From NCBI RefSeq assembly GCF_003259895.1, contig NZ_QLME01000016.1, positions 1 to 64,000 of the forward strand: DNA of 64,000 nucleotides. The letters are read 5' to 3'. Under the pieces are notes generated by a model. That model saw only the letters and a program-made list of their open reading frames with translations, searched no databases and was not told where the DNA came from. The translations under genes and the position numbers were made by a program. Below are positions 31,379-55,546 of the stretch, piece after piece. Source of the DNA: Halanaerobium saccharolyticum (GTDB lineage: Bacteria > Bacillota > Halanaerobiia > Halanaerobiales > Halanaerobiaceae). Position 1 is the stretch's first letter; each line of letters opens with the position of its first letter.

Positions 31379-31416
31379 AAAATTGAAAATTAAAAAATTT
31401 AACACAATTTTTACTA

Positions 31417-31428
31417 TAAACCGGTTTA
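31417..31428. promoter_or_regulatory. LacI-type operator upstream of GH8
   Basis: TAAACCGGTTTA, a perfect 12-base palindrome, 66 bases from the GH8 start and 19 bases past the lacI stop. Confidence 0.8.
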
Positions 31429-31446
31429 AATAAATAAAAATTGAAA

Positions 31447-32442
31447 TTAAATTTCTTTACAGGTTTCCCCTTCTATTAATCTGGTTGGCAGAATAATAGG
31501 TGAAAATGATTTTTGGTTTATTATATTTAAAAGCAATTTAGATGCGGCCTGTCCCAATCCAATTTGATCCTGAGCAATAGTAGTTAAGTGATAATGTCTT
31601 CCAATCTCTATGCTGTCAAAACCAATAACTGAAAAATCTTCTGGAACACTTAAATCAGCCTCTCGAATTGCTTTTATAGCACCAATAGCAATTAAATCCT
31701 CAGCGAAAATCGCAGTCGGTTTTTCCTCAAGCCTGAGTATCTCTTTCATAGATTGATAACCTGTTTCCATGCTGTAATCTCCATCAAACATCCATTTTGA
31801 GTTATAGGGAAGATTTAAAGCCTTAACAGCCTGCTGAAAACCAACAAATCTATCAGTTGCTACTTTAAAACCATTGAGCCCTCTAATCATTGCTATTTTC
31901 TTGTGCCCTAAGTTATATAAGTATTCAACGGCTTTGCGGGCACCACCGGTATTATCAGAAGTAATATAAGAAGTATTTGAACCAACTAAGTCTAAATCAA
32001 CAAATACAGATGGGATCTCCGAATTTAACAGTCGATCAAATTGAGCAATATTAACTTTTCCATAACCCATCATAATTACTCCATCAACATTTCTGTTCTC
32101 ACATTTTTCTTTATAACTGTAATCAACCCATGATTCATCCCACTGTTTATTGGTAAAATATAAGAGATCATAACCCTTATCTCCCATAATATTTTCTATT
32201 CCTTCAAAAACTTCTCTAAAAAAGAAGTTATTTAATATTTGAGGACCAAAAATACCAATAGTGTGAGATTTTTTTGTTGATAGACTTCTGGCAACGGAAT
32301 TAGGCCAGTAATTATTTTCCTTCATTATTTTTAGAACTTTTTCTTTTGTATCATCACCAACTCCTTTGTAATTATTAATTACTTTAGAAACGGTTGATTT
32401 AGATACTTTCGCTTTTTTTGCAATGTCATTAATTGTAACCAT
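31447..32442 (-). CDS. LacI-family transcriptional regulator of xylo-oligosaccharide genes
   Basis: 331-residue repressor. The N-terminal helix-turn-helix TINDIAKKAKVSKSTVSKVINN (shown in part) and hinge WPNSVARSL are canonical. A periplasmic-binding-like sensor domain follows from about residue 60. Its own start is preceded by an operator copy at 32458-32469, and two copies follow it in front of GH8. Together with the two copies before oppA this defines a regulon of oligosaccharide uptake and intracellular xylanase genes. The effector is unknown; xylobiose or a related oligomer is a fair guess. Confidence 0.92.
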   Translation of the reverse strand: MVTINDIAKKAKVSKSTVSKVINNYKGVGDDTKEKVLKIMKENNYWPNSVARSLSTKKSHTIGIFGPQILNNFFFREVFEGIENIMGDKGYDLLYFTNKQWDESWVDYSYKEKCENRNVDGVIMMGYGKVNIAQFDRLLNSEIPSVFVDLDLVGSNTSYITSDNTGGARKAVEYLYNLGHKKIAMIRGLNGFKVATDRFVGFQQAVKALNLPYNSKWMFDGDYSMETGYQSMKEILRLEEKPTAIFAEDLIAIGAIKAIREADLSVPEDFSVIGFDSIEIGRHYHLTTIAQDQIGLGQAASKLLLNIINQKSFSPIILPTRLIEGETCKEI

Positions 32443-32457
32443 TTTATCACTTCCTTT

Positions 32458-32469
32458 GAAACCGGTTTA
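32458..32469. promoter_or_regulatory. LacI-type operator in front of lacI
   Basis: GAAACCGGTTTA adjacent to the AAGGAAG ribosome binding site of the regulator gene, pointing to autoregulation. Confidence 0.8.
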
Positions 32470-32579
32470 CTTAATTATACTAAAAAAACTCCAAAATTTC
32501 AAGAGGGAATAATAAAATATTTCAATATTATTTAAATTTTAATAATTTTAACTTTTATGAGGATTTTTAGATAATGAAA

Positions 32580-32631: not shown

Positions 32632-33951
32632 TTAATTATTTAAGATATACTGATTTAATCTTGCTTCTAGCATTTCCTGGCGTCCTGAATGATTTTCGAC
32701 TTCACCAAGTTCTAATGCATATTCAGCAAGTTCTTCCAGACCTACTTCTTGATTGACAATCTTCTTACCAATTCCGCTTTCATAGCTTGCATATCTTTCT
32801 GCTACAAATTCTTCTAGAACTCTATCTTCTAATAATTTATTAGCTATCTTTAATCCCTTAGCAAAAGCATCCATTCCAGCAATATGTCCGTAAAATAAAT
32901 CTTTCATTTTAAAGGAAGGTCGGCGTACCTTAGCATCAAAGTTTAGTCCACCTGTACCCAGACCATTATTTTTAAGAATCTCATACATTGCTAAAGTAGT
33001 TGTGTAAATATTTGTTGGGAACTGATCTGTATCCCAGCCCAGTAATAGATCTCCCTGATTAGCATCTACACTACCTAACATATCATTAATTCTGGCAAAA
33101 TGAAGCTCATGCTCAAATGTATGACCGGCTAAAGTAGCATGGTTTGCTTCCAGATTTATCTTAAAGTGATCAGCAAGATCATACTTTCTTAAGAAGGCAA
33201 TAACATTTGCTGCATCAAAGTCATACTGATGTTTTGTAGGCTCTTTTGGTTTAGGCTCAATTAATAATTGACCGTCAAAACCAATTTTTTCTTTATAATC
33301 TACAGCCATTTCCAGGAAGCGGGCCAGGTTATCCTGTTCTAAAGCCATGTTTGTATTTAAAAGAGTCTCATAACCTTCACGGCCGCCCCAGAATACATAG
33401 TTCTGACCGCCAAGTCTTTTGGTAACTTCCATAGCTTTTTTAACCTGAGCAGCTGCCATAGCAAATATATCTGCATTAGGTGAGGTAGAAGCTCCGTTCA
33501 TAAAACGAGGGTGGCTAAACATATTTGCTGTTCCCCAGAGCAGCTTAATTCCAGTCTCATCCATTTTACCTTCAATCAGATCAACAATAGTATCTAAATT
33601 TTTATAACTTTCTGCTACTGTTTTTCCTTCTGGGGCCACATCCCGATCGTGGAAACAGAAATAAGGAGCACCTAATTTCTCCATAAAAGTAAAGGCACCT
33701 TCAACTTTAGCCTTTGCTCTATCTAGAGGGTCTTTAATATCAGCCCAGGGATAATTTCTGGTCCCAGCACCAAAAGGATCCTCACCAGTATCAGCAAAAG
33801 TATGCCAGTAAGCAATTGAAAATCTTAAATGCTCTTCCATTGTTTTACCAGCAAGCTCTTCTTCTGGATTATAATATTTAAAAGCCATTGGATTATCTGA
33901 TTCCGGTCCTTCATATTTCACTTTCTTAAAATCTTTAAAAACATTTTTCAT
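32632..33951 (-). CDS. xylA: Xylose isomerase
   Basis: Converts D-xylose to D-xylulose. 439 residues, the class II length. Visible active-site segments: [11 protein letters not shown] (catalytic H), [12 protein letters not shown], the metal-binding [29 protein letters not shown] and the late LNFDAKVRR. The ATG at 33951 follows GGAGG. It has its own promoter carrying the shared TTAATTTAA module (34019-34082) and a terminator, so it is a single-gene unit behind xylFGH. No xylulokinase gene is adjacent, which is unusual for xylA loci. Confidence 0.97.
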
Positions 33952-34018
33952 AATTTGATTACCTCCATTTTGTAATAAATATAAGTTTGAGACATTAACA
34001 ACATTATTAATTCAAGTA

Positions 34019-34082
34019 TTAATTTAAGTGTTAAATTAACTCTCTGTTTATATTATTCAAGACTGAATTAAAATTTCCTGCA
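34019..34082 (-). promoter_or_regulatory. Shared promoter module, copy A (xylA)
   Basis: Read on the minus strand: TGCAGGA, 30 bases including CTTGAATA, AGAGAG, then the palindrome TTAATTTAA-CAC-TTAAATTAA (34019-34039). The same order and spacing recur before xylF, the malE-like gene and the dehydratase. TTGAAT may be a -35 box, with the palindrome covering the -10. Confidence 0.65.
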
Positions 34083-36835: not shown

Positions 36836-37870
36836 TTACTGTTCTGGCCATTCTGATTCAGGTACATTTTTATATACTTCTTCCATTTCGTGGAATCCAT
36901 CTTCGATAACTGTATCTACCATATTACCTTTATGAACCTGAACTGGAGTCAGAAGAATAGAAGGTACATCATATTCACCATTATTAATGGCACCATTAGT
37001 TTCTACTTCTTCTCCTCTGGCCATCTTAACTGCAATTTCAGCACCACTAGTTGCTAAATTCTGAATAGGTTTATAAATAGTCATAGTTTGAGTTCCTTCA
37101 ACAACTCTCTGAACAGCAGCAAGGTCAGCATCCTGTCCGGAAACCAATACTTCTCCAGCTAAACCCTGTTCGGCCAGGGCCTCAATTGCTCCACCAGCTG
37201 TACTATCATTTGAAGCAACAATAACATCGATATCATTATTATTTGCTGTTAAAGCATTTTCAATGATGCTTAATGCTTCCTGTGGTAACCAGTCTTTAGC
37301 CCACTGATCTCCAACAACTTCAATTTTACCTTCGTCAATATAAGGCTGCAGTACATTCATCTGTCCTTCTCTAAATAACTTTGCATTATTATCAGTTGGA
37401 GAACCACCTAATAAGAAATACTTACCTTCAGGCTGTCTTTCAACTAAAAACTCTGCCTGCAGTTCACCTACGCGAACATTATCAAAGGAAAGATAATAAT
37501 CCACTTCACTATCCATTAACATTCTATCATAAGCAAGTACAGGTACATCATTGGCATGAGCTTCTCTAACAATACTTCCCATTACCTGACCATTATGGGG
37601 TACAACTACCAATACATCGATACCCTGAGTAATTAAGTTTTCTGCCTGTGACAGCTGAACCATGTCATCACCATTAGCAGACTGAACCAGCACTTCTGCT
37701 CCTAATTCTTCAGCCCGTTCTACGAAAATATCTCTGTCATGCTGCCATCTCTCAAGTCTTAAGTTATCCATTGATAGTCCAATTGTAATACCATCCTGAG
37801 CCATTACACCAAAAGATCCTAAAAATAGTACAACTGCTAACAATGTTGAAATAACAATACTTTTTCTCAT
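36836..37870 (-). CDS. xylF: D-xylose-binding periplasmic-type protein
   Basis: 344 residues with a signal peptide (about 1-24, FGVMAQ). The segments GLSMDNLRLERWQHDRDIF, VLAYDRML and the late GQDADLAAVQRV match XylF, including the tryptophan/arginine sugar-contact region. Cargo D-xylose. It heads xylFGH under copy B of the shared promoter module, with an SD-like element in its leader. Confidence 0.94.
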   Translation of the reverse strand: MRKSIVISTLLAVVLFLGSFGVMAQDGITIGLSMDNLRLERWQHDRDIFVERAEELGAEVLVQSANGDDMVQLSQAENLITQGIDVLVVVPHNGQVMGSIVREAHANDVPVLAYDRMLMDSEVDYYLSFDNVRVGELQAEFLVERQPEGKYFLLGGSPTDNNAKLFREGQMNVLQPYIDEGKIEVVGDQWAKDWLPQEALSIIENALTANNNDIDVIVASNDSTAGGAIEALAEQGLAGEVLVSGQDADLAAVQRVVEGTQTMTIYKPIQNLATSGAEIAVKMARGEEVETNGAINNGEYDVPSILLTPVQVHKGNMVDTVIEDGFHEMEEVYKNVPESEWPEQ

Positions 37871-37968: not shown

Positions 37969-38045
37969 TTAATTTAAGATTTAATTTAAGTATTAAATTA
38001 ACTCTCTATTTAATAACTTTCTCCATAATTAGTTAAAGTCCTGCA
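37969..38045 (-). promoter_or_regulatory. Shared promoter module, copy B (xylF)
   Basis: TGCAGGA, 31 bases, AGAGAG, then TTAATTTAA-TAC-TTAAATTAA (37981-38001) and one extra half-site (37969-37977). This copy lacks the CTTGAATA segment of the other three. Confidence 0.65.
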
Positions 38046-38115: not shown

Positions 38116-40467
38116 CTATTTAACCTTAACTTTTGTAAAATAGCCTCTTGCAGCTGTTAATTCAACTTTATCACCTTTAAGCTCTATAACATCTTCCAAT
38201 CTGATATCAGTTGAAGAACTGCCAATCATAATTTCAAACTCACCAGGTTCAACAACCAGGTTCATATCTTTATCATAAAATGCCAGCTGTTCAGCTTTTA
38301 ATTCAAATTCAACAGTTTTACTTTCTCCTGCCTTTAATTCAACTCTTTTAAAACCTTTGAGTGACTTAATTGGTCTGGTTAGAGAAGCAATTCTGTCATG
38401 AATGTAAAGCTGCACTACTTCTGCTCCGTCCAGCTTACCAGTATTTTTGATATCAACCTTAATTGTTATTGTTTTATTACCTTCAAATTCTTTTGGACTT
38501 ATCTTCAGATTAGAATATTCATAATCTGTATAACTCAACCCAAAACCAAATGGATATAATGGTCTGTTACCTGTAAATACATAATCCCGGTAATGAGACA
38601 TATGGCGGCGGTTATAATGAATTGGAGTTTGGCCAACATTTTTGGGAATTGAAACAGGGAGTTTTCCTGCCGGATTATAATCTCCAAATAATACATCGGC
38701 TACACCATTTCCACCTTCTTCTCCCGGCAGCCAGGCCTCTAAAATTGCATCAGCATTTTCTGCTGTCCATTCAATTGATAGCGGACGTCCATTGACTAAA
38801 ACAACTACTACAGGAGTTCCAGTTTTAATAATTTCTTTGATTAACTTTTCCTGTACTCCAGGCAGATCTAGAGAAGTTCGATCATGGTGTTCTCCGGTGG
38901 TATCAGTAGTATTTTGCAATTCACTTAAGAAAGCCCCTCCTTCAAAATCAACTACATCATCGTCACTGTTTTCATTTTCTCCCATCCCGGAAAGACCTGA
39001 TTTACCACCCACAACTACTACTGCTACCTCAGATTCTTTAGCAGCCATAACAGCTTCTGCAAAACCATCCTGGTTATTATCCATTATGCCACAGCCATTG
39101 GCGTAATTAATTTTTGTATCTGAAGATATTTTATTTTTAATTCCATCCAGTATACTGATAACCTCAACCGCATCCTCTTTGCTGTCAACATGAGCACTAT
39201 AGGCATAATCTCCCAGTAAATTACGGGTGCTGTCTGCCGAAGGTCCGATTACTGCCAGTGAAGATATTTCTTTAGATAAGGGTAATAAATCATCATTGTT
39301 TTTAAGTAAAACCATAGATTTTCGGGCTGATTCCCGGGCCAGCTCTCTCTGCTCTTTTGTTTCAAAAAGACCTGCAATTTTATCTAAATCAACATAGCGC
39401 TGATCAAAAGCATTAACTTTAAATTTATAGCGCAGGTGTCTTCTCACTGACTGATCAATCACAGCTTCTGAAATTAAACCTTCATTTACTGCCTCAACAA
39501 GTTTTTGCCCATAACATTCTGTTTCCGGTAATTCTATATCAAGTCCAGCTTCTAAAGCTTTAATACCTGCTTCCTGCATAGAACGGGCCACCTTATGTTC
39601 ATTATGCAGCATCTTAATACTCCAGTAATCAGATACAACAACCCCATCAAATCCCCATTCTCCTCTTAAAATATCAGTTAATAACTTGCGGGAAGAAGCA
39701 CAGGGTATACCGTCAATATCATGATAGGCATTCATCACTGAACCAGCATTTGCAGTTTTAATTGCCGCTTCAAATGGAAATAGAAAGCTTTCTCTCAGTT
39801 CTCTTTCCGAAATATTCACCGGTGCATGATTGCGCCCACCTTCGGAATAGCTGTGGCCGGCAAAGTGTTTAAGTGTTGCCACAATTCCTTCTGAAAGTTT
39901 ATCTCCCTGCAGTCCTCTAACATAAGAACTAACCATTTCTGCTGCCAGATAGGGATCTTCACCAAAAGTTTCTTCAACTCTACCCCAGCGTAAATCTCTG
40001 GCTACATCTGCCACAGGTGATAGTGCTAAATGAGCTCCAATTGAACGCAGCTGTTTTCTTATAACATCAGTCTGCCTTTCCAATAATTCCGGCTCCCAGC
40101 TGCTGGCAACTCCAATTGATTGAGGAAAGGTTGTTCCACCTTTACCCATATAACCGCTCAAACATTCTTCATGAACAATTGCTGGAATTCCAAGCCGGGT
40201 ATTTTCAGCAATATATTTCTGCATTTTATTTGCCGCATCAGCTGCAGCCTCTGGTTCCAAGGCACTTGCTCCTGCAATCCTGGTAATCTGTCCAATTCCA
40301 TTTTTTAAATATTTAGCTGCTTTTGCCTCAGAAAATTTCCCCTTCTCTAAAATCTTATCCGGTCCAATAGAACCAAGCTGAGCAACTTTTTCCTCTAGAG
40401 TCATTTCTTCTAATAGTTTTTCTACCTTTTCCTCTAAAGAATAATCCTCTAAATTAAATTCTGCCAT
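38116..40467 (-). CDS. GH3 beta-xylosidase/beta-glucosidase, cytoplasmic
   Basis: 783 residues from ATG 40467 (after GGAGAGG; an ATG at 40488 is less well placed). No signal peptide. The GH3 barrel shows VEETFGEDPYL, KHFAGHSYSEGG and the nucleophile D in GVVVSDYWSI. The second domain has GFGLSYTDYEYS and a C-terminal FnIII-like domain follows. The fold differs clearly from the GH3 at 8528-10711 (for example SDYWSI instead of SDCGAI), placing it in another GH3 subgroup. It is last in an operon with a CUT1 importer, so it probably splits the disaccharide or oligosaccharide that importer brings in. Confidence 0.88.
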   Translation of the reverse strand: MAEFNLEDYSLEEKVEKLLEEMTLEEKVAQLGSIGPDKILEKGKFSEAKAAKYLKNGIGQITRIAGASALEPEAAADAANKMQKYIAENTRLGIPAIVHEECLSGYMGKGGTTFPQSIGVASSWEPELLERQTDVIRKQLRSIGAHLALSPVADVARDLRWGRVEETFGEDPYLAAEMVSSYVRGLQGDKLSEGIVATLKHFAGHSYSEGGRNHAPVNISERELRESFLFPFEAAIKTANAGSVMNAYHDIDGIPCASSRKLLTDILRGEWGFDGVVVSDYWSIKMLHNEHKVARSMQEAGIKALEAGLDIELPETECYGQKLVEAVNEGLISEAVIDQSVRRHLRYKFKVNAFDQRYVDLDKIAGLFETKEQRELARESARKSMVLLKNNDDLLPLSKEISSLAVIGPSADSTRNLLGDYAYSAHVDSKEDAVEVISILDGIKNKISSDTKINYANGCGIMDNNQDGFAEAVMAAKESEVAVVVVGGKSGLSGMGENENSDDDVVDFEGGAFLSELQNTTDTTGEHHDRTSLDLPGVQEKLIKEIIKTGTPVVVVLVNGRPLSIEWTAENADAILEAWLPGEEGGNGVADVLFGDYNPAGKLPVSIPKNVGQTPIHYNRRHMSHYRDYVFTGNRPLYPFGFGLSYTDYEYSNLKISPKEFEGNKTITIKVDIKNTGKLDGAEVVQLYIHDRIASLTRPIKSLKGFKRVELKAGESKTVEFELKAEQLAFYDKDMNLVVEPGEFEIMIGSSSTDIRLEDVIELKGDKVELTAARGYFTKVKVK

Positions 40468-40508
40468 TAAAACCTCTCCTTTTTTCAAATAATATTAGCT
40501 TTGTCTGC

Positions 40509-41333
40509 TTAGCCTTTTAACGCTCCAGCAGTCATTCCTTTAATAATATGTTCCTGTAAAAATACATACAGTACAATCAATGGTAAAACTGATAAAAATA
40601 GCGCCGTTAGGGTTAAAGGAATGTTTATTCCATGCTGCCCCTGAAATTCAAATAAACCAAGTGTCAGAATACGTTTACCTGGGCTTGAGGTTAAAACAAG
40701 AGCATAGGCAAACTGATTCCAGAGTAAAGTTAGATTATAAATAGCAACTGTAGAAATTGCCGGTTTAACTAAGGGTAAAATTATATCTTTAAAAATTCTA
40801 AACCTGCTTGCCCCATCTATAATTGCTGCCTCTTCCAGCTCATAAGGTATATCATTTATAAATCCAGTTAAAATGAAAACAGAAATTGGAAGACTAAAAG
40901 CAACATAGGGACCAATCAAAGCTGAAAGTCTATCATATAAACCCATAGAAAGTGTTATCTTATAAATGGGAATCAATGTGGAATGAATCGGAATCATCAT
41001 CCCTGCTAGAAATAAAATATAGACAAGTTTATTAAATTTAAAATCTATGCGTGAGATAGCATAACTGGCTAAGGCGGAAACAATTATAATAATTGCAACA
41101 GATATAAAACAAACTATTATACTATTGATAAAATAAATATAAAATCCAGATTCCATAACTTCGATATAGTTTTGTAAGGTGAAATTAGCCGGTAATGACC
41201 AGACAGGGTTCCGAAAAAACTCAAGTCTGACTTTAAAACTATTCTGAACTAAAAATACAAGTGGATAACCTGTTATAACTAACCAGATTGACAAAAACAA
41301 ATAAATAACTAACTTTTTTATTCTATTAACCAT
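40509..41333 (-). CDS. Sugar ABC importer permease, MalG type (CUT1)
   Basis: 274 residues, six spans, EAA loop YELEEAAIIDGASRFRIFKDIILPLVKP, C-terminus IIKGMTAGALKG. It follows the MalF-type gene by 10 bases. No ATPase accompanies it. Confidence 0.92.
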   Translation of the reverse strand: MVNRIKKLVIYLFLSIWLVITGYPLVFLVQNSFKVRLEFFRNPVWSLPANFTLQNYIEVMESGFYIYFINSIIVCFISVAIIIIVSALASYAISRIDFKFNKLVYILFLAGMMIPIHSTLIPIYKITLSMGLYDRLSALIGPYVAFSLPISVFILTGFINDIPYELEEAAIIDGASRFRIFKDIILPLVKPAISTVAIYNLTLLWNQFAYALVLTSSPGKRILTLGLFEFQGQHGINIPLTLTALFLSVLPLIVLYVFLQEHIIKGMTAGALKG

Positions 41334-41343
41334 CTTCTCTCAC

Positions 41344-42231
41344 CTAATTCCTGACATCTTTTTTGCTGAATCTTAAAAATACAACAGATACTATAAGCGC
41401 AACTAAGAACAAGGCTACAGAAATTGTACTACCATAACCCATATTCATTTCTGTAAAGGATTTTGAATAAAGATAAGTAGCCATTAATTCGGAAGCATGA
41501 TTTGGTCCCCCACCTGTTAGAGCAAAAATCATGGCAAAATATTTAAGTGAACCAACAATAATCAATACAGATGCATTAACTACTGTAGCTCTGAGCATTG
41601 GTAAAGTAACAAAGAAAAACATCTGCCAGTTATTGGCACCATCAATCTCTGCTGCTTCGTATAATTGTTCTGGGATATTTGAGATAGCTGCCATAAAAAT
41701 AATCATATATAGTGGTATAAAACGCCACTGAATTGGAGCTGCTACAGAATAGAAAACAATATCGGGATTTCCAAGCCAGCTCTGTGTTAAGTGTTCCAAC
41801 CCTACTAAATTTAAAACTCCATTAATCAGGCCAAAAGTCGGATCATACATATAACGCCAGAGAAATGCTACAGCAATTGAAGATAATAGCATTGGCACAA
41901 AAAATATAGTTTTAAAAAAACTTGCTCCCTTAATTTTACGGGTTAACAGTACTGCCAAAAATAAAGCAATTGGTATCTGGATTACCAGGGATATTGCTAC
42001 CAATTTAAAGTTGTTTGCCATTGAAGACCAGAATATAGGATCACTTAATAATTCTGCCCAGTTATCAAGCCCTAAAAATTCCATTGCTCCTATACCATCC
42101 CACTCAAAAAAGGAATAATAAGCTGAAAGTGGAATAGGAATAATTAAATACACTAATGAAAAAATAAGGGCTGGCAGCAAAAATAAGGCTGCAATAAAAT
42201 ATTTATTATTCATTAATTCTTTTTTATTCAT
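41344..42231 (-). CDS. Sugar ABC importer permease, MalF type (CUT1)
   Basis: 295 residues from ATG 42231 (GAGGTG upstream; an in-frame start at 42267 would run into the hairpin). Six spans and EAA loop EQLYEAAEIDGANNWQMFFFVTLPMLR. Pairs with the permease at 40509. The binding protein and substrate are upstream. Confidence 0.9.
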   Translation of the reverse strand: MNKKELMNNKYFIAALFLLPALIFSLVYLIIPIPLSAYYSFFEWDGIGAMEFLGLDNWAELLSDPIFWSSMANNFKLVAISLVIQIPIALFLAVLLTRKIKGASFFKTIFFVPMLLSSIAVAFLWRYMYDPTFGLINGVLNLVGLEHLTQSWLGNPDIVFYSVAAPIQWRFIPLYMIIFMAAISNIPEQLYEAAEIDGANNWQMFFFVTLPMLRATVVNASVLIIVGSLKYFAMIFALTGGGPNHASELMATYLYSKSFTEMNMGYGSTISVALFLVALIVSVVFLRFSKKDVRN

Positions 42232-42255
42232 TATTATAACACCTCTTAAATTAGA

Positions 42256-42279
42256 GCAGAGAGGCAAATACCTCTCTGC
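42256..42279. terminator. Intercistronic hairpin after the malE-like gene
   Basis: A 9-bp stem GCAGAGAGG and its complement with a 6-base loop, between the binding-protein stop (42300) and the permease start. Confidence 0.75.
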
Positions 42280-42299: not shown

Positions 42300-43580
42300 T
42301 TATTCACTATAATATTCTTGAGCGGCCTCTTCCATCTGATCAGCTGCTTCCTCAGGAGTCATTTCCATACCAAATAAAGCTTGAGTCGTATTTAAATGAA
42401 CCTGTGCCAGCTCTAATGGTAATGTCTGATCATACCACAGCTGAATATGATTTGCATTTTGACTTGCATCATATATTTTCTTCATAATTGGATCTTCTAT
42501 TTTTTCACCAACACCAGTAAAGGGAGGTATATTACCGATTTCAATTAATTGTTCACCCATCTGAGAATCTGTCAGGTATTTTAGAAATTCTACAGCAGCT
42601 TCTTTATTTGGAGCCTGAGTAGAAACAGAGTAATAATTATCCCCTGGAGTACCAACCAGGTTAGATGGATCTCCTGCACCAGATTCAATTTCCGGGAAGT
42701 TAAAGAAACTAAACTGATCTACCATATCAGAAGCTTCGTTTTTAAAGGAAGAATAGGCCCAACTGCCCATCAAATACATAGCTGCCCGATCGGTATAAAG
42801 CAGGGTTCTGGACTGAGCTGCATTTTCATCAAGACCATTAACCCCATCCGGGAAAGCGCCCATTTCTACCAGTTCCTGAATTCTTCTACCTGCCTCTATA
42901 AATGCCTCATCATTAAAAGCACCTTCTCTACTAATTGCATTCTGTAATGCTTCTGGTCCACCAATTCTATCTACAAGATACATAAAATACATTGAACCAG
43001 GCCATTTATTACTATTGGCCAGAGCAAATGGAGTAATTCCATTTTCAGTAAATGTTTCTACTACATTTAATAATTCATCGTAGGTTTCAGGTACTTCCAG
43101 GTCATATTCCTCAAACAAATCTGTTCTATACCAGACAAGCGCAGGTGATACGTTTGTCACTGGCACACCATACATCTCATTATCAACTCTACCTAAATCA
43201 AGAGCAGCTAGCATAAAGTTATTTTCCCAATCTTCCGTCATGTTGGATTCTAGAGAATAAACTTTATCTGCATCAACATATCTTTCCAGACTTGCACTAC
43301 CCCAGGTCATAAATAAATCTGGTGCATTATCTGCTGACATTGCTGTTCTTAATTTTGTTTTATAATTGTCATTTTGAGTTGGAACATGCTCAATTGTTAC
43401 ATTTGGATTATCTGCCTCAAACCGTTCAATTGCATCTTTAACTGCTGGAGTTGCCTGGTCAGCAGCGGTTCTGATATCCCATAATGTTAAAGTAACCTCG
43501 TCCTGAGCCATAACACTACCAGCAAAAACAAAAGAAAATACCATTAATAAAGTAAGCGATAAAATTAAAACTTTTTTCAT
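42300..43580 (-). CDS. Sugar ABC importer binding protein, MalE type (CUT1)
   Basis: 426 residues from ATG 43580 (GGGAGG upstream; the longer in-frame start at 43631 lacks one). Signal peptide about 1-25 (GSVMAQ), then SBP_bac_1 fold with TLTLWDIRTAAD, DLFMTWGSASLERY and GTPGDNYYSVS. Family members bind xylobiose, cellobiose or similar. With GH3 in the operon a xylo-disaccharide is plausible. The promoter carries shared module copy C. Confidence 0.9.
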   Translation of the reverse strand: MKKVLILSLTLLMVFSFVFAGSVMAQDEVTLTLWDIRTAADQATPAVKDAIERFEADNPNVTIEHVPTQNDNYKTKLRTAMSADNAPDLFMTWGSASLERYVDADKVYSLESNMTEDWENNFMLAALDLGRVDNEMYGVPVTNVSPALVWYRTDLFEEYDLEVPETYDELLNVVETFTENGITPFALANSNKWPGSMYFMYLVDRIGGPEALQNAISREGAFNDEAFIEAGRRIQELVEMGAFPDGVNGLDENAAQSRTLLYTDRAAMYLMGSWAYSSFKNEASDMVDQFSFFNFPEIESGAGDPSNLVGTPGDNYYSVSTQAPNKEAAVEFLKYLTDSQMGEQLIEIGNIPPFTGVGEKIEDPIMKKIYDASQNANHIQLWYDQTLPLELAQVHLNTTQALFGMEMTPEEAADQMEEAAQEYYSE

Positions 43581-43670
43581 AAAATTATTCCTCCCTTTTA
43601 ATTTGAAATTCATAGATTTTTCAACTCTCAAAGTTAGTAATTAAAACAAGAGAACATTTATCCCTCCTTT

Positions 43671-43708: not shown

Positions 43709-43784
43709 TTAATTTAACCATTAATTTAACCGATAAATTAACTCTCTAATATTATTATTCAACACTCAGCCAAAAAATCCTGCA
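43709..43784 (-). promoter_or_regulatory. Shared promoter module, copy C (malE-like gene)
   Basis: TGCAGGA, 30 bases with GTTGAATA, AGAGAG, then the inverted half-sites TTAATTTAt-CGG-TTAAATTAA (43721-43741) and a third half-site at 43709-43717, all separated by three bases. The gap 43581-43896 holds only this, the SD-like element and the terminator at 43828. Confidence 0.65.
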
Positions 43785-43896: not shown

Positions 43897-44793
43897 TTAT
43901 ATTAATTCAGCTTCCCTTAGAATCCTTTTAATTTTCAAAGTCTGTTCATTATTTAATAACCCAACCGGTTCCTTACAAACTGCATTTAAATTACTCCCGC
44001 TTAAAGAAACAGCCTTTTTTATTGCCGGGAAAAAAGGATCAGAAACACTGTATATTCCCATCATAATATTAATTTTTCGGGATATTAGTTTTAGTTTACT
44101 AAAATCATTTTTTTGATATGAATTATAGAATTCAGTAAATAATTGAGGAGCAACATTCGACAATCCACCAATCAAGCCATTTCCTCCATTGAGAAGATTG
44201 GGGAGAAAATATTCGTCAAAACCAGAGTAAACTGCAAACTCTCTATCCAGTGTTAATTTGACTTTCTGGATCAACTCTCTAGTGTGGCTGATGGTATCCA
44301 GTGTATCTTTAATTCCCACAATATTGTTATAGTTTTTTGCCAGTTTAAAAACTGTTTCCGCAGAAATATTTACCCCACTGCGAGCAGGAAAATTATAGAG
44401 ATATAAATCCAGATCAACATTTTTAGCTATATAACTATAATAATTGTAAAGAATTTGTTGATTAAACTGGAAAAAATAAGGAGTTATTACAGCTGCTCCA
44501 TCTACCCCTTCTTTTCTGGCAAAATTACTTAATTCTATTACATCTTCTGCTGCTGTGCCACCGGTTCCTACCAGTACTGGAACTCTATTAGCAACTATTT
44601 GAACAGCAAAAGAAATCAGCTCCTTTTTTTCTTTTAAGGTCATTGCAAAAAACTCTCCGATACTTCCTAAAAACAAAATACCGTTTACTCCACCCTGAAT
44701 AAGATTTTCAATATGTTCTTTTGTTGCTTTATAATCATTGTTTTTGTTTTCATCAAAAACTGTAATGGTTGGTGTTATAATACCCTTAATCAA
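43897..44793 (-). CDS. 2-keto-3-deoxy-sugar-acid aldolase, YagE/YjhH-like (DHDPS family)
   Basis: Class I aldolase of the DapA superfamily, 298 residues. Schiff-base lysine K162 in GIKDT, catalytic tyrosine Y133 in YNFPA, and VGTGGT at about 75-80. The segments GTGGT, YNFPA and GIKDT match, from memory, E. coli YagE and YjhH, which split 2-keto-3-deoxy-xylonate to pyruvate and glycolaldehyde. The partner gene 31 bases upstream is a YjhG/YagF-like dehydratase, the same pairing as in E. coli. A KDG aldolase role, which would also serve the glucuronate pathway, is the main alternative. Confidence 0.85.
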   Translation of the reverse strand: MIKGIITPTITVFDENKNNDYKATKEHIENLIQGGVNGILFLGSIGEFFAMTLKEKKELISFAVQIVANRVPVLVGTGGTAAEDVIELSNFARKEGVDGAAVITPYFFQFNQQILYNYYSYIAKNVDLDLYLYNFPARSGVNISAETVFKLAKNYNNIVGIKDTLDTISHTRELIQKVKLTLDREFAVYSGFDEYFLPNLLNGGNGLIGGLSNVAPQLFTEFYNSYQKNDFSKLKLISRKINIMMGIYSVSDPFFPAIKKAVSLSGSNLNAVCKEPVGLLNNEQTLKIKRILREAELI

Positions 44794-44824
44794 TATTTTA
44801 TCCTCCTAACAAATAATCATCTCT

Positions 44825-46576
44825 TTACATATTCTTATTAATTAACTCACTCAAATAATCTGTGTCAATATAGGCACCCTTCATTGGAGAAGCAGCAAGC
44901 TGAGTGAAGATCCCCAGTGATCCATTTTTGAATTTTTGAGCTGGTTTACTCCATTTTTGAGAACGTTCTTTTAAAATTTTAGTAATCTCTGGCTCAGTTT
45001 TTTCTTGACCATCAACTCCAACAATATTTAAGGCTCTTTTTTTGATATCAATTTCTATCAGATCATTTTCTTCTACCAGAGCTATCGGTCCTCCAGAAGC
45101 GGCCTCTGGTGAAACATGACCAATTGCCGGTCCTCGAGTAGCTCCAGAAAATCTGCCATCAGTTATTAGAGCAGTTGTTTTATTCAATTTAGGATCGGAA
45201 GCTATAGCCTCTGTAGTATAATACATTTCAGGCATTCCAGATCCTTTGGGTCCTTCATAACGGATAATTATAGCGTCTCCAGACTTAATGCTGCTATTCA
45301 AAACAGCTTCCATTGCCTCTTCTTCCTGGTCAAAAACTCTGGCTCGTCCGGTAAAGTTTCTCATTTCATCTGGAAGTGCTGAATGTTTGACCACTGCCCC
45401 TTCTGGGGCCAGATTACCTCTTAAAATTGCAACTGCCCCCTCTTTATTGATTGGCGAATTGATACTAAAAATAACCTTTTCAGAATCCGGCATAACTGCC
45501 GGCTTATTTTCCATTTCCTCCAGATAGGGAAATTCAGACAGCGATTCCAAATTTTCACCTACAGTTTTCCCTGTAATAGTTGGTAAATCAAGATTTAAAT
45601 GCTGCTTAATCCTCTTCATTACCTCAGGTACTCCACCTGAATACCAGAAATATTGAGTTGGATAATCCCCACTGGGAATTGTATTAACCAAAAAGGGAAC
45701 TTCCCGATGAATTTGCTCAAATAAATCACCATCAATTTCAATTCCCAGTTCATGAGCAATTGCAGGTAGATGCAGCAGTGCATTGGTAGAGCCACCAATA
45801 GCAGCATGAACAGCAACAGCATTTTTAAGTGATTCCTTTGTTATTATCTGAGCTGCTCTAATATCTTTTTTTACATTTTCAGTTAAATACTCAGCTGCCA
45901 GAGAAGTCATTTCTGTTAATTGAGTAGTATTGGCAGGAATTAAGGCTGATCCTGGAAGAGCCAACCCTAAAGCTTCAGCCATAACCTGCATTGTAGCAGC
46001 TGTACCCATAAATTGACAGGCTCCACAGGAAGGACAGGCTAATTTTTGGGTTTCTAAATATTTCTCTTTAGTGATTTCTCCTCGTTTATATTTAGCATAA
46101 TCACTGGCAGTCATATCAACTGTAGTTTTTTTCTTACCCAGAGCCATTGAGCCACCGGGAACGTGAACTGTAGGTAAATTCAGCCGGGCCGCAGCCACTA
46201 GATGAGCAGGAACTGCCTTATCACAGGCTGAAATCATCAACATTCCATCATAGGGAGCCGCTTTTGTCTGTACTTCTACCATATTAGCTATCATTTCTCG
46301 GGAGACTAGAGAATAATTCATCCCATCATGACCCTGGGCCATTCCATCACAGATATCACTGACTATCATCGAAGCACCTTTGGCATCATGATTTTTTAAA
46401 CTCGAGAGTGCTTTCTCAACCAGTTTGTCCAGATGGAAACTACCGGGATGCCCATATCCATAAGTACTGCTGACAATTATCTGTGCTTTTGATAAATCAG
46501 ATTGATCCCAGTCCATCCCCATTTTAAGCGCATCAAGTTCAGGACTGCTTTCTCTAATTTTTTGACTTTTTAGCAT
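44825..46576 (-). CDS. Sugar-acid dehydratase, IlvD/Edd family, YjhG/YagF-like
   Basis: Fe-S dehydratase of about 583 residues. I take ATG 46576, eight bases after GGAG; a GTG three codons earlier overlaps that site. Likely cluster cysteines lie in SDICDGMAQG, ISACDKAVPAH and ACPSCGACQFMGTAATMQ. This last segment and the following LGLALPGSALIPA resemble xylonate dehydratases YjhG/YagF more than IlvD of branched amino acid synthesis. With the aldolase it forms the lower Dahms route for pentonates. The start of the route, a xylose dehydrogenase, is not evident in the window. Under shared promoter module copy D. Confidence 0.85.
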   Translation of the reverse strand: MLKSQKIRESSPELDALKMGMDWDQSDLSKAQIIVSSTYGYGHPGSFHLDKLVEKALSSLKNHDAKGASMIVSDICDGMAQGHDGMNYSLVSREMIANMVEVQTKAAPYDGMLMISACDKAVPAHLVAAARLNLPTVHVPGGSMALGKKKTTVDMTASDYAKYKRGEITKEKYLETQKLACPSCGACQFMGTAATMQVMAEALGLALPGSALIPANTTQLTEMTSLAAEYLTENVKKDIRAAQIITKESLKNAVAVHAAIGGSTNALLHLPAIAHELGIEIDGDLFEQIHREVPFLVNTIPSGDYPTQYFWYSGGVPEVMKRIKQHLNLDLPTITGKTVGENLESLSEFPYLEEMENKPAVMPDSEKVIFSINSPINKEGAVAILRGNLAPEGAVVKHSALPDEMRNFTGRARVFDQEEEAMEAVLNSSIKSGDAIIIRYEGPKGSGMPEMYYTTEAIASDPKLNKTTALITDGRFSGATRGPAIGHVSPEAASGGPIALVEENDLIEIDIKKRALNIVGVDGQEKTEPEITKILKERSQKWSKPAQKFKNGSLGIFTQLAASPMKGAYIDTDYLSELINKNM

Positions 46577-46653
46577 TACGATCACTCCAGATATTATTTT
46601 TATTTCTACTTATTATTTTTTATAAACAATTCTTTTCTTTTGCTTTTAAATAA

Positions 46654-46716
46654 TTAATTTAGGAATTAAATTAATCTCTACTATTTATATTCAAGACTCA
46701 GATTAAAAGCCCTTCA
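46654..46716 (-). promoter_or_regulatory. Shared promoter module, copy D (dehydratase operon)
   Basis: A variant GAAGGG box, 30 bases with CTTGAATA, AGAGAT, then TTAATTTAA-TTC-cTAAATTAA (46654-46674). The order and spacing match copies A and C. Confidence 0.6.
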
Positions 46717-46802: not shown

Positions 46803-48416
46803 TTATTTGTTTTTTCGCTCATATTCACTGGGAGTTATACCTTCAAAATCCTTAAAAACTTTAAAAAAATAATTGTAATTATTAAATCCTACCTGACTTA
46901 CTATTTCTTTAATATTCCTCTTTCCTTCAGTTATCATTTTTTTTGCTTTTTTGATTCTCAACTGATTTAAATAATCACTAAAACCCTGCCCGCATTCTTC
47001 TTTGAATTTTCGACTGAGATAAGAATAACTGACTCCAATTTCTGCAGCCACCTGACCTAAAGTTAAATCCTGATCATAGTTTTTATCTATATAAAGCAAT
47101 GTCTGATTGATTAAATTTGAATAATTATTCTTATCTTTTAATTCTGCAACTAAATTAATATAAATTTTAATTATCCAGTCTTTAAATTCTGTCAGAGAGT
47201 TTAATTCTTCTAACTTTTGATAGGGGTTTCCTTTTTCCTCAAAAATATTTTCGCCCCTTAATCCCTTATCTTTAATACTGCTGTTGATAATATTGATTAA
47301 GGAAATAAGGGTCATCTTTAAAACTGATAACCCAGGTTTAATCCTGGCTATATCATTAAATAAATTTTCCAGTTCATTTTTTAAAGCTGTCGAATCTTTT
47401 TTTTCTATATATTTTAATAAAAGCTTCTCTCTTTTAATATCAAGATTAAATTGTTGATTATCAATTCTATTATTCTGATTCTGATAAATAATCATATCTT
47501 TACCCTGGTAGAATTTATCTTCCAGCAGCTCTGCTGTTTGATTATAACTTTTCGCTATCTCCAGAGGATTATGCAAAATATTACTTACTGCAAAACTGGC
47601 AGTAATATTTAAATAATTTTTCAAAGCAGATTTAATTCTATTGATAGCAGAAGCAGTACTGTTGTTAATTTTTAATTCACTGTTGTCCCGAAAAGAAAAC
47701 AAAAAGAGAAAGTTCTTTTCATCCTTTAAAACTGCAAAAGATTTACCATTTTCCTTTAAAATTTCATCTGCCATATTGATAAATGAGCGTTTAATATTCA
47801 ACAATTTTGCTGCTGTATACTTCTGCTGCAGATCCTGATAATTATCAAATTGCCCAATTGTAATAACAATATTTTTGAGTTCAAAATTAATGGACAGCAG
47901 TTCAATCTGCTTTTTTAAATCATTTTTATTATTAAAATATCCCCTGACCAGCTTCTCAGCAAAATTCTGGATCAGGATATTTTTTTGATCCAGAAAAAAA
48001 CTTTCTTCAAAAACATCACTATTCTTATCTTCTTTATTCTGCTCAATTTTTATTCTTAAAGCTGTGAGTAGACTAATTAAACTATCTTTTTTTAATTCAT
48101 GTTTTAATATATAATCTTCTGCCCCTGCTTTTAAGCTTTTTTTAACATAATCAAATTCTTTATATCCACTTAAGGCAATTGATTTGATCTCCGGATAATT
48201 TTCAGCTATATATTTGATTAAGTCGGCTCCACTTTTACCAGGCATCTTCATATCAGAAATAATTATATCAAATCTTTCCTCTTCTAGTTTCTTTTGTGCT
48301 GCCTCTACATTTTTAATCTGTTCTGATATTTGAAAACCCTCCTGGTTCCAGTCAATTATATTTTTCAAATGGGTATAATCAAAAATATCATCTTCAACTA
48401 TCATTACTTTTAACAT
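46803..48416 (-). CDS. yesN: AraC-type response regulator (YesN family)
   Basis: 537 residues from ATG 48416. The receiver domain has acidic E8-D9-D10 and the phosphorylation site D55 in IIISDMKMPG, with a late K in LKHELKK. A long middle region and a C-terminal AraC helix-turn-helix pair (LTLGQVAAEIGVSYSYLSRKFKEE; NIKEIVSQVGFNNYNYFFKVFK) follow. It overlaps nothing and starts 46 bases after the kinase. YesN proteins usually activate an adjacent CUT1 importer; the system at 50497-54917 is the best candidate, the malE-like one the next. Confidence 0.92.
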   Translation of the reverse strand: MLKVMIVEDDIFDYTHLKNIIDWNQEGFQISEQIKNVEAAQKKLEEERFDIIISDMKMPGKSGADLIKYIAENYPEIKSIALSGYKEFDYVKKSLKAGAEDYILKHELKKDSLISLLTALRIKIEQNKEDKNSDVFEESFFLDQKNILIQNFAEKLVRGYFNNKNDLKKQIELLSINFELKNIVITIGQFDNYQDLQQKYTAAKLLNIKRSFINMADEILKENGKSFAVLKDEKNFLFLFSFRDNSELKINNSTASAINRIKSALKNYLNITASFAVSNILHNPLEIAKSYNQTAELLEDKFYQGKDMIIYQNQNNRIDNQQFNLDIKREKLLLKYIEKKDSTALKNELENLFNDIARIKPGLSVLKMTLISLINIINSSIKDKGLRGENIFEEKGNPYQKLEELNSLTEFKDWIIKIYINLVAELKDKNNYSNLINQTLLYIDKNYDQDLTLGQVAAEIGVSYSYLSRKFKEECGQGFSDYLNQLRIKKAKKMITEGKRNIKEIVSQVGFNNYNYFFKVFKDFEGITPSEYERKNK

Positions 48417-48461
48417 TCTAAATATCCTTTCTAAAATAAATTGATAATTATTCATTTAATT

Positions 48462-50312
48462 TCAATTAATCTCAGGTAAAATAATTTTAACAGTTGTAAA
48501 ATAACCTTTTAGACTCTCAATTTCGATTCCATATTCTTTGCCAAAATAAAGTTCAATTCTCTCTTTAACATTATTAATTCCAATTCCTGAAAATTGATCC
48601 TTGTTTTCTCTCTTTTTATTTAATAAATCTTCTATTTCTGCTTCAGACATTCCTATTCCATCATCTGTAATTGTAAAAATAACCTGGTTATTTTGAGTAA
48701 AACCCTTTATTTCAATTAATCCCTGTCCAGACTTGCCACTTATTCCATGAATGATAGAATTTTCTACAACCGGCTGCAGTAAAAAACGAGGTATTTTATA
48801 ACTCATTAAATCAGCTTCAATTTCAAATTTAACATCAAATTTATTGTGCAGTCTAAACTGCTGGATATTTAGATAACTTTTAAGATATTCTACTTCTTTC
48901 TCCACTGTAATCAAGTCCTCTTTGTTATTCATACTTAAATGCAGTAGATTTATTACAGAAGAGAGAAAATTTTCCAGATTATCTGCATTCTGCATATCTG
49001 CCAGCAGACGGGCTGTATTTAAAATATTAGAAAGAAAATGAGGATTAATCTGGGCCTGAAGTGCTTTAAATTCTAAATTGCTTTTCTGTTTTTCTTTTTC
49101 TTTCACATCTTCCAGTAAACCTTTTAACTCTTCAACCATCTGATTAAAGTTAGAGCTGGCTTCAGCAAGCTCATCCTGGGCCTGGTCATCAATTTTAACT
49201 TCTAAATTTCCTTCTTCAACCTGGTTCATTGCTTCAACTAAATTATTAAGCGGATCAGAGATACTTTTTGTAAATATATAAGACAAAAACACTGCCAATA
49301 AAAAGATAATCAAGCTAACTCCCATTATATCTCTGGCAATTTGACCTGTTTCTCTAGTTAAATAAGAAAAAGGTATTGTACTGACAATATACCAATCTGC
49401 ATCTTTGATTGGAGCATATGCTGTCAAATTTCTTTCTTCGCCAATTGTTAATTCAAAACTCTCATTTTCAGCATCCGAGTTGGCTCTGATTTTTTGAATT
49501 AACTCCGGTTCTGGATATTTTTCATTAAATGAAATATTATTATTTCTGGTGGAAACAACAGTTCCTTCCGAATTGACAATAAAAATTTCAGTTCTCTGAC
49601 CTAAATCAATATTTCGATAAACATCTGAAAATAAGTCTTCATTAATCCTGATAACAATTGATCCCAATTCACTACCATCATATAATTCTTTAATTGTTCT
49701 CCCAATTATTATACCATATGATTTTTCAGGTGTATTTTCAGGATAAACTCTACTAACCTGATGCAGCTCGTCACTAAAATCTACTGCTTCCCAGACAGGA
49801 GCGCCATTTTTATCCCGTATCTCAGCAAGTAAATTTTCTCTAAAATCATCTTTAAAAGTTAAGGTAAAGCCGGTATCACCATAAGCAATAATTTTATCTC
49901 CCTGGTCTGTAAATAACTGAACATCAGAAATATATTCGGAAAAAGAAAATTTGCGCACCATATCAGCCCTCATTCGATATCTGGCATCATAAACTTCCCA
50001 CTCACTCAACTTCTCATAATTACTGAGGGTATTTTGTACAAGTTCCGAAAAAGCAATTTCTATAGTCTGATATTCCATTCTGGTTAATTCTTCTTCAATG
50101 TTTTTTGCCACCTGGTTAACCACTTCTACTGAATAGGTATTAATTTTATCATGAATTGCCTGACTTGATTTCTGATAGGAGTAAATACCTGTAATTAACA
50201 TTGGAAATAGAGAAAGTATTAAAAATAGAACAATTAAACGATTCTGGATATGTGTTTTTCGAAGATAACGATATAATTTTATTTTGATTTTAATTAGCAA
50301 GTTTTCTTTCAT
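48462..50312 (-). CDS. yesM: Sensor histidine kinase (YesM family)
   Basis: 616 residues. Two membrane spans (about 26-43 and 330-348) enclose an extracellular cache-like sensor of about 285 residues. HAMP at about 349-402, His_kinase motif QAQINPHFLSNIL with H425 (FLSN instead of the more usual FLYN), then an ATPase domain with DDGIGMS and GIGINNVKERIELYFG. Extracytoplasmic sugar or a ligand-loaded binding protein is the usual signal. It is transcribed first, with a possible TATAAT at 50345-50350. Confidence 0.93.
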   Translation of the reverse strand: MKENLLIKIKIKLYRYLRKTHIQNRLIVLFLILSLFPMLITGIYSYQKSSQAIHDKINTYSVEVVNQVAKNIEEELTRMEYQTIEIAFSELVQNTLSNYEKLSEWEVYDARYRMRADMVRKFSFSEYISDVQLFTDQGDKIIAYGDTGFTLTFKDDFRENLLAEIRDKNGAPVWEAVDFSDELHQVSRVYPENTPEKSYGIIIGRTIKELYDGSELGSIVIRINEDLFSDVYRNIDLGQRTEIFIVNSEGTVVSTRNNNISFNEKYPEPELIQKIRANSDAENESFELTIGEERNLTAYAPIKDADWYIVSTIPFSYLTRETGQIARDIMGVSLIIFLLAVFLSYIFTKSISDPLNNLVEAMNQVEEGNLEVKIDDQAQDELAEASSNFNQMVEELKGLLEDVKEKEKQKSNLEFKALQAQINPHFLSNILNTARLLADMQNADNLENFLSSVINLLHLSMNNKEDLITVEKEVEYLKSYLNIQQFRLHNKFDVKFEIEADLMSYKIPRFLLQPVVENSIIHGISGKSGQGLIEIKGFTQNNQVIFTITDDGIGMSEAEIEDLLNKKRENKDQFSGIGINNVKERIELYFGKEYGIEIESLKGYFTTVKIILPEIN

Positions 50313-55081: not shown

Positions 55082-55546
55082 TTATTTTAACTGAATAATA
55101 TTAACCGAATGAGGCTTTAATTTTATCTGCAATTTATTACTGTATTCTTCCAGTTTTTCTCCTTTTATTTTAACCTCATTTCTATTAATATCATTAGAAT
55201 CTTTATTTACAGCAGCCACTGCAACACCTTTTTTATCAGACCATTTAGTTGCCAGTAAATCTATACTTTCAACTTCAACGGACTCTCCGATTTTAGAAAC
55301 CACTTTAAAGCCTGGAATCTCGTCTGACCAGACATCAATTATTGTGTCTCTAAGTATGTTCTTCGTATAGGCCATATACTGTTCGTAATCTGCCAGATTA
55401 TTTTCTTCTGGAGCCATATCCCAGTATTCGTGAATTGAAATCCAGTCCAGAAAATCTCCACAATTTTTCAATAAATTAATATTCCATTCTAAATCTGGAA
55501 GTGCTGCAGCTAAAAGCTCTGTCTCTGGATCAATATGCTTGATCAT
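55082..55546 (-). pseudogene. GH51 alpha-L-arabinofuranosidase remnant
   Basis: A 154-codon frame matching only parts of a GH51 enzyme. The first part (DPETELLAAALPDLEWNINLL, DFLDWISIHEYWD, YEQYMAYTKNILRDTI; shown in pieces) is the middle of the catalytic barrel. It then jumps at about residue 70 to the C-terminal beta domain (SDEIPGFKVV, ATKWSDKKGVAVAAVNKD, LKPHSVNIIQL). The N-terminal half with the acid/base NE motif and the segment with the nucleophile (DEWN in the family) are both missing. No ribosome binding site precedes the ATG. The reading frame is nevertheless intact, so decay is recent or a short product is still made. Confidence 0.8.

Follow-up and report, generated by a model that had tools for sequence, protein, structure and literature searches.

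The locus and the gene pair

The window analysed here is a stretch of 64,000 nucleotides (positions 1 to 64,000) of contig C16 (NZ_QLME01000016.1) in the 3.31 Mb, 63-contig genome of the salt-loving, xylan-consuming anaerobe Halanaerobium saccharolyticum; among named relatives, Halanaerobium species come closest (dehydratase identity 81–82%). It is a xylan/arabinoxylan locus with GH10, GH8, GH67, GH43 and GH3 enzymes, xylose isomerase and XylF; the names of its uxu, ara and further transport genes were assigned by eye from the sequence. Our analysis concerns two genes in this locus, for a dehydratase and an aldolase, which may form an operon of a predicted xylose regulon that dehydrates and cleaves D-xylonate. 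Both open reading frames (ORFs) are uninterrupted neighbours on the minus strand, and their span, 43897–46576, agrees with an earlier sequence-only reading that had placed them inside a xylose isomerase locus.

44828..46576, minus strand: IlvD/EDD-family sugar-acid dehydratase, 583 aa, first gene of the pair (both family domains, motifs and tree)
43897..44793, minus strand: YagE/YjhH-related 2-keto-3-deoxy-aldonate aldolase of the DHDPS superfamily, 298 aa, second gene of the pair

The dehydratase starts with an ATG that agrees with its relatives; the mechanically called ORF opens at a GTG at 46585. The aldolase has a TTG start codon with AGGAGG upstream.

Family and phylogeny of the two enzymes

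The dehydratase matched the Pfam families ILVD_EDD_N (1.1e-106) and ILV_EDD_C (5.2e-63) and carries the CDG, CDK and TDGRxSG motifs, which places it in the IlvD/EDD superfamily. The roles of these motifs are treated in the available part of PMC5770437, according to which the CDG form occurs in phosphogluconate dehydratases but not in those for pentonates, and may point to a different type of cluster. CDG is also present in E. coli YjhG and YagF. The protein reached no NCBIfam cut-off. It scored 553 bits against 644 for the PRK00911 subfamily, 521 against 618 for ilvD, and 350 against 808 for the YjhG/YagF model TIGR03432, to which the control, E. coli YagF, scored 1161. The nearest solved enzymes are dihydroxy-acid dehydratases (347 bits), and identity is 57% to the C. 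magnum protein (L022) and 35% to the E. coli yag dehydratase.

In a 49-row tree, the clade of this dehydratase (37 rows) joined YjhG and YagF at 100/99 with IlvD outside, and a 22-row tree gave the same placement. When the clade was forced together with the IlvD-type rows, leaving YjhG/YagF out, the topology was rejected by the approximately unbiased (AU) test (p 0.001). The sister relation to YjhG/YagF carries some caution because the YjhG/YagF branch is long. Judged by its sequence, the dehydratase is a member of the IlvD/EDD family that is not an IlvD and does not score as YjhG/YagF; its clade appears to be sister to YjhG/YagF. The label "YjhG/YagF-like" used in the sequence-only reading is therefore a loose one.

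The aldolase matched the Pfam family DHDPS (5e-68), and its best solved relative is YagE (196 bits), followed by a DapA (151 bits). The invariant Y133 and K162 (the Tyr and the Schiff-base Lys) are present, and GSIGE stands in place of the GTTGE of DapA. In a 16-row tree the protein grouped with the genome's own aldolases at C1:144942 and C18:53337 and with one Lachnospiraceae protein. This group joined YagE/YjhH at 94/95, just below the star threshold, while NanA stood apart and the DapA rows split off at 99/98. Holding together only the Halanaerobiales, L060, YagE and YjhH rows was rejected (p 0.0225), which is in line with the C1 and C18 copies of the genome belonging among the YagE/YjhH-type rows. 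The tree and the solved-relative match thus bear out the description of the aldolase as YagE/YjhH-like, nearer to these than to DapA or NanA. The earlier reading had named, as the outcome that would speak against it, a dehydratase in the IlvD clade and an aldolase with dihydrodipicolinate synthases or sialic acid lyases; neither was found in the trees. The C1 copy (L112) is a YagE-like aldolase beside a gene resembling 2-keto-3-deoxygluconate (KDG) kinase and an enolase-superfamily dehydratase.

A shared operator and a predicted xylose regulon

The pair shares a palindromic operator, TTAATTTA-N5-TAAATTAA, with the xylose genes of the window. The operators and the genes behind them are as follows.

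46654..46674: operator, perfect, single copy, upstream of the dehydratase
43709..43741: two overlapping operators (one mismatch; perfect), before the ATP-binding cassette (ABC) transporter/GH3 operon
37969..38001: two overlapping operators (one mismatch; perfect), before xylF
34007..34039: two overlapping operators (two mismatches; perfect), before xylA
32632..33951, minus strand: xylA, xylose isomerase (741.5 bits, cut-off 533)
36836..37870, minus strand: xylF, binding protein of the xylose ABC transporter (above both curated cut-offs)
42300..43631, minus strand: substrate-binding protein of a xylo-oligosaccharide-type ABC transporter (Pfam SBP_bac_1; close solved relatives)
40509..42267, minus strand: two ABC permease genes of the same transporter (order kept in L005, L006 and L047)
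38116..40488, minus strand: GH3 glycosidase, beta-xylosidase type by context, in the transporter operon

Exactly four perfect copies occur in the window, 68–111 nt before xylA, xylF, the transporter gene at 42300–43631 and the dehydratase gene, versus a mean of 0.017 (maximum 1) in 60 dinucleotide shuffles of the window. The claim of the sequence-only reading that the pair has the promoter module of xylA and xylF was thereby confirmed and made exact. Within one mismatch the window holds six copies at a spacer of 5 and at most one at any other spacer. In a separate scan, a 4-base spacer gave background only (80 versus 112 in the control). A second, overlapping operator lies 12 nt off at xylA, xylF and the transporter gene. 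With a single copy at its promoter, the dehydratase gene may be under weaker control. A TTGAAT ends 14–15 nt ahead of the operator at xylA, the transporter gene and the dehydratase gene (14 nt at the last, on the gene strand) but not at xylF; the operator would overlie the −10 region.

Genome-wide, there are five perfect operators, and 17 copies within one mismatch versus 6 for a reversed control. The fifth perfect copy lies 130 nt upstream of a transketolase gene. Two one-mismatch copies lie just upstream of a gene for a ROK-family regulator (Pfam ROK 1e-54), which adjoins a xylulokinase gene (611 bits, cut-off 380). Among solved proteins, the ROK protein has its best match in a different ROK regulator, with the XylR entry 4ija further down by score. 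In G012, which belongs to another genus, a 49% identical ROK gene is preceded by a one-mismatch operator and followed by genes of xylulokinase and xylose isomerase type. The operator is thus common to xylA and xylF and also stands before the ROK gene, as expected of a XylR (ROK) regulon. Because the perfect operator is common to xylA, xylF, the transporter operon and the pair, we place the pair in this predicted xylose regulon.

The solved proteins most similar to the 42300–43631 product are xylo-oligosaccharide-type binding proteins, and the 3zkk entry is named XOS binding protein. The relatives 4g68 and 3vxb are of this type as well.

Some further elements were seen around these promoters. 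A TGCAGGA element, perhaps the site of a wider regulator, lies 41–44 nt upstream of the operator in most promoters (34076, 38039 and 43778 in the window; also in L005, L006, L047 and L234) and is degenerate before the dehydratase gene. TCCTGCA occurs about 80 nt before an araM-like gene (57093) and before a GntR gene (8470, 8503). At 31400–32480, a LacI-family gene adjoins xylA and is flanked on both sides by AAACCGGTTT palindromes which differ by eye from the TTAATTTA operator and are probably its own sites. Two other features of the window are:

46803..50312, minus strand: AraC-type response regulator and histidine kinase, upstream of the pair and a possible second control layer over it
55082..55546: 154-aa ORF with no Pfam match, resembling by eye a C-terminal piece of an arabinofuranosidase and probably a gene remnant

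Occurrence in Halanaerobium and in the order

We searched a family set of 14 genomes, two of them less than 90% complete, and an order set of 38 genomes. The pair was found in four of the 14 family genomes, all within the six that have xylA above its cut-off, and the distance between xylA and the dehydratase gene is about 10.9 kb in all four. The records L005, L006 and L047 correspond to genomes G008, G003 and G007, and L007 and L008 to G017 and G016.

In these other Halanaerobium genomes the pair sits among xylosidase or xylo-oligosaccharide transporter genes. In H. saccharolyticum MA284 (L005) the operator is followed by GH43, GH120, dehydratase and aldolase genes, with an overlap between the stop of GH120 and the start of the dehydratase gene. 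The operator of H. kushneri (L006) precedes a second transporter set (binding protein and two permeases), after which come the dehydratase and the aldolase. H. saccharolyticum WC1 (L047) keeps the GH43-GH120-dehydratase-aldolase order, and ORFs that look transposase-like by eye separate it from the nearest upstream operator. G009 keeps the operators, the transporter, GH3, xylFGH and xylA; the pair is missing there, and no close copy was found elsewhere in that genome. A regulon that exists without the pair indicates that the pair is an accessory piece. By eye, the place of the pair in the window is taken in G009 by a LacI-type gene and another ABC transporter (L234, 2826–7133), and the interval seems to be a swap point.

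Across the order, an aldolase at least 61% identical was found in eight of the 38 genomes, namely the four family genomes and G015, G016, G017 and G022. In the latter four the aldolase gene also follows a dehydratase gene, which a GntR-type gene precedes in two; the dehydratase is split into two ORFs in G015, and the G016 contig ends at the pair.

Neighbours of the dehydratase in related loci

We fetched 80 loci of relatives, of which 79 had a scorable dehydratase ORF (L068 was dropped), and counted the neighbours within four genes; the family names of these neighbours rest on one representative each. A GntR-type gene was present in 31 loci, a GntP permease in 28, a KDG-kinase-like gene in 18, a 2-keto-3-deoxy-6-phosphogluconate (KDPG) aldolase in 17, both of the latter in 16, and a YagE-like aldolase in 6. 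None of the five families was present in 27, and no locus combined a YagE-like aldolase with a KDG kinase or a KDPG aldolase (0/79). Because these clade neighbours are of gluconate/KDG type, the ancestral substrate of the clade was probably a hexonate. C. acetobutylicum CA_C3604, which we assume to fall in this clade, was predicted by the same context to be a gluconate dehydratase (available part of PMC4179846). The pair would thus have swapped phosphorylation and KDPG aldolase for direct cleavage, which is what a five-carbon acid would require.

On C9, a paralogue of the dehydratase lies in a cluster (L111; L156–L162) that also encodes transporters, a dehydratase of the enolase superfamily and a putative nickel-dependent hexonate epimerase (600 bits for the L156 copy, cut-off 500). 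The C9-type cluster of G012 includes genes of KDG kinase and KDPG aldolase type.

Proposed function and alternatives

In our proposal, the two genes make up a short operon that is an accessory to the predicted XylR (ROK-family) xylose regulon and would be repressed by the ROK protein. The dehydratase would remove water from D-xylonate, free or on oxidised xylo-oligosaccharides, to give 2-keto-3-deoxy-D-xylonate, which the YagE-like aldolase would cleave to pyruvate and glycolaldehyde without phosphorylation. Glycolaldehyde would probably be reduced by one of the iron alcohol dehydrogenases of the genome, and the route would run beside the isomerase route, not in its place. D-xylonate is the best guess for the substrate because of the xylose operator, the xylosidases and the parallel with E. 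coli yagEFGH. We give this reading a probability of about 0.55; the substrate and the regulation of the pair are what we infer from the sequences. The sequence-only reading had called the two proteins enzymes of the Dahms route. In this it was borne out by the aldolase and the xylose operator, and it was not by the membership in YjhG/YagF or by the gluconate/KDG-type neighbours outside Halanaerobiales.

Several observations weigh against our proposal. Outside Halanaerobiales, the closest members of the dehydratase clade resemble gluconate dehydratases, with GntP, KDG kinase and KDPG aldolase as neighbours. A topology holding together only the Halanaerobiales dehydratase rows and YjhG/YagF was not rejected by the AU test (p 0.074), which leaves the finer branching of the clade unsettled. 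The orthologous pairs of G015, G016, G017 and G022 have neither the operator nor obvious sugar genes around them; a source of the substrate other than xylan is therefore conceivable. The search for a xylose dehydrogenase elsewhere in the genome, which the sequence-only reading had suggested, gave 17 matches to the one D-xylose dehydrogenase model used (Gfo6 type), the best at 172 bits and none above the cut-off of 350. No glycolaldehyde-converting enzyme is visible in the regulon; the lactaldehyde reductase model had ten matches in the genome, none above its cut-off, the best (499.5 versus 523) lying in a cluster that looks rhamnose-like by eye. The aldolase lies above the NCBIfam dapA cut-off, by a marginal 1.5 bits (207.6 versus 206.15), as does the kinase-linked C1 aldolase (209.3). 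Finally, the role of xylonate system could instead belong to a dehydratase/aldolase cassette on C18 whose layout is that of E. coli yjhIHGF. This cassette (L110, 9339–14224) has an IclR-type regulator (by eye), a dehydratase above the ilvD cut-off, a GntP-like transporter (49 bits) and a YagE-like aldolase.

Unlikely, in our estimate, though the most probable of the other readings, is a hexonate route that yields pyruvate and glyceraldehyde. In it, either the dehydratase acts on a six-carbon aldonate such as D-gluconate, or the aldolase cleaves KDG made by UxuA. It would agree with the clade relatives that have GntP permease (28/79), KDG kinase (18/79) or KDPG aldolase (17/79) genes nearby, with the C9 paralogue (63% identical), whose cluster in a relative has the putative epimerase above cut-off, and with YagE, whose annotation is KDG aldolase and whose crystals were obtained with KDG. 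The pair, however, has its own non-phosphorylating aldolase, unlike the gluconate-type clusters, and belongs to the predicted xylose regulon. A one-mismatch operator also lies 18 nt before the start of the KDG kinase gene at C18:16106, but this lone copy directly adjoins the ribosome site and lacks the promoter module, and the reversed control gives about six chance copies per genome. As the sequence-only reading had observed, the window has no KDG kinase or KDPG aldolase; the two KDPG-aldolase and 16 PfkB matches of the genome all lie off C16. At C18:14982–17128, a KDPG aldolase gene (above cut-off) stands close to a KDG-kinase-like one, which scores below the cut-offs for KDG kinase, so KDG would already be served. 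Near the uxu genes of the window no operator was found within two mismatches. The suggestion that the pair is linked to the UxuA enzymes is weakened because these KDG-kinase-like and KDPG aldolase genes are present elsewhere in the genome and the uxu region is free of operators; as the main role of the pair, we reject UxuA-derived KDG on these grounds.

A complete Dahms pathway, in which the cell oxidises xylose by an unrecognised dehydrogenase and a lactonase before the pair acts, is a special case of our proposal and seems slightly less probable still than hexonate use. An SMP-30-type lactonase gene at C18:30322–31050, a Gfo/Idh protein on C9 that is nearest to the D-xylose dehydrogenase model (172 bits), and short-chain dehydrogenase/reductase and aldo-keto reductase genes in the genome are in its favour, but 0 of 17 matches reach the 350-bit cut-off of this Gfo6-type model (the short-chain type falls outside it), and none of the perfect operators was seen to precede a dehydrogenase or lactonase gene. 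In G009, a similar SMP-30-type gene was seen by eye near a C18-type cassette. That L-arabinonate or another pentonate from the arabinoxylan side of the locus is the substrate appears improbable: a GH43 gene and an operon of araA/B/D type (names by eye) share the window, but the operator links the pair to xylA and xylF and not to the ara genes. Least probable by far is that the two proteins are displaced amino-acid enzymes, a dihydroxy-acid dehydratase and a dihydrodipicolinate synthase. The 1.5-bit excess over the dapA cut-off would agree with this, but the dehydratase is about 100 bits short of the ilvD cut-off, its grouping with IlvD was rejected (AU p 0.001), the aldolase lacks GTTGE, and further copies of IlvD and DapA are encoded elsewhere in the genome. 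The likely biosynthetic ones are a DapA on C28 and an IlvD on C3 in a leucine/valine cluster (neighbours by eye). We reject a role of the pair in amino-acid biosynthesis on account of the trees, the motifs and the separate ilv and dapA loci.

As to the origin of xylonate, we tentatively suggest, as a possibility rather than as our expectation, that no xylose dehydrogenase is involved. Xylo-oligosaccharides with xylonate ends, produced by C1-oxidising fungal enzymes or by chemical oxidation, might be imported by the transporter and trimmed by the co-regulated xylosidases, and the leftover xylonate might be cleaved by the pair, which the XylR regulon would have taken over from a lineage of gluconate type. 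The isomerase and aldonate routes would then be under a single switch, and E. coli yagEFGH would have come to this trade independently. In the open-licence PMC literature, we found no paper on Halanaerobium together with xylonate and none on the catabolism of oxidised xylo-oligosaccharides.

The enzyme parts are of known kinds; their combination is unusual. If our proposal is true, a fermentative anaerobe has aldonate cleavage and xylose isomerase in one regulon, a dehydratase lineage outside the known xylonate dehydratases is at work, xylonate operons gain a natural substrate source that can be put to the test, and salt-tolerant enzymes become available for making glycolaldehyde-derived products. 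If the substrate is gluconate, the operon is an ordinary extension of the regulon.

Comparison with known systems

The predicted regulon resembles the XylR regulons of Firmicutes, in which a XylR regulator has sites at xyl genes. These were reported before xylA, xylB, xylFGH, xyloside genes and the regulator gene itself (available part of PMC2873477, in whose main text neither "dehydratase" nor "xylonate" occurs). A Salmonella xylonate operon of the same two enzyme families has also been reported (available part of PMC12445098). The clostridial gluconate clusters of CA_C3604 type contain the clade of the window dehydratase, but they have GntP, KDG kinase and KDPG aldolase, whereas the window pair has a YagE-type aldolase.

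E. coli yjhIHGF has the same two enzyme families and, according to the literature, an IclR-type regulator. Its layout fits the C18 cassette of the genome better than the window pair. The transporter of yjhIHGF is of GntP type.

A parallel in setting is E. coli K-12 yagEFGH, which serves D-xylonate catabolism under XynR. Like the window pair, it consists of an aldolase and an IlvD/EDD-family dehydratase, and a transporter and yagH ("putative xylosidase/arabinosidase") adjoin them, akin to the setting in the window. Its dehydratase, 35% identical, belongs to another clade, and the E. coli pair lies on a prophage. The yag genes are under an IclR-type repressor that responds to 2-keto-3-deoxy-xylonate (available part of PMC13279387), whereas the window pair would be under the predicted xylose regulator instead.

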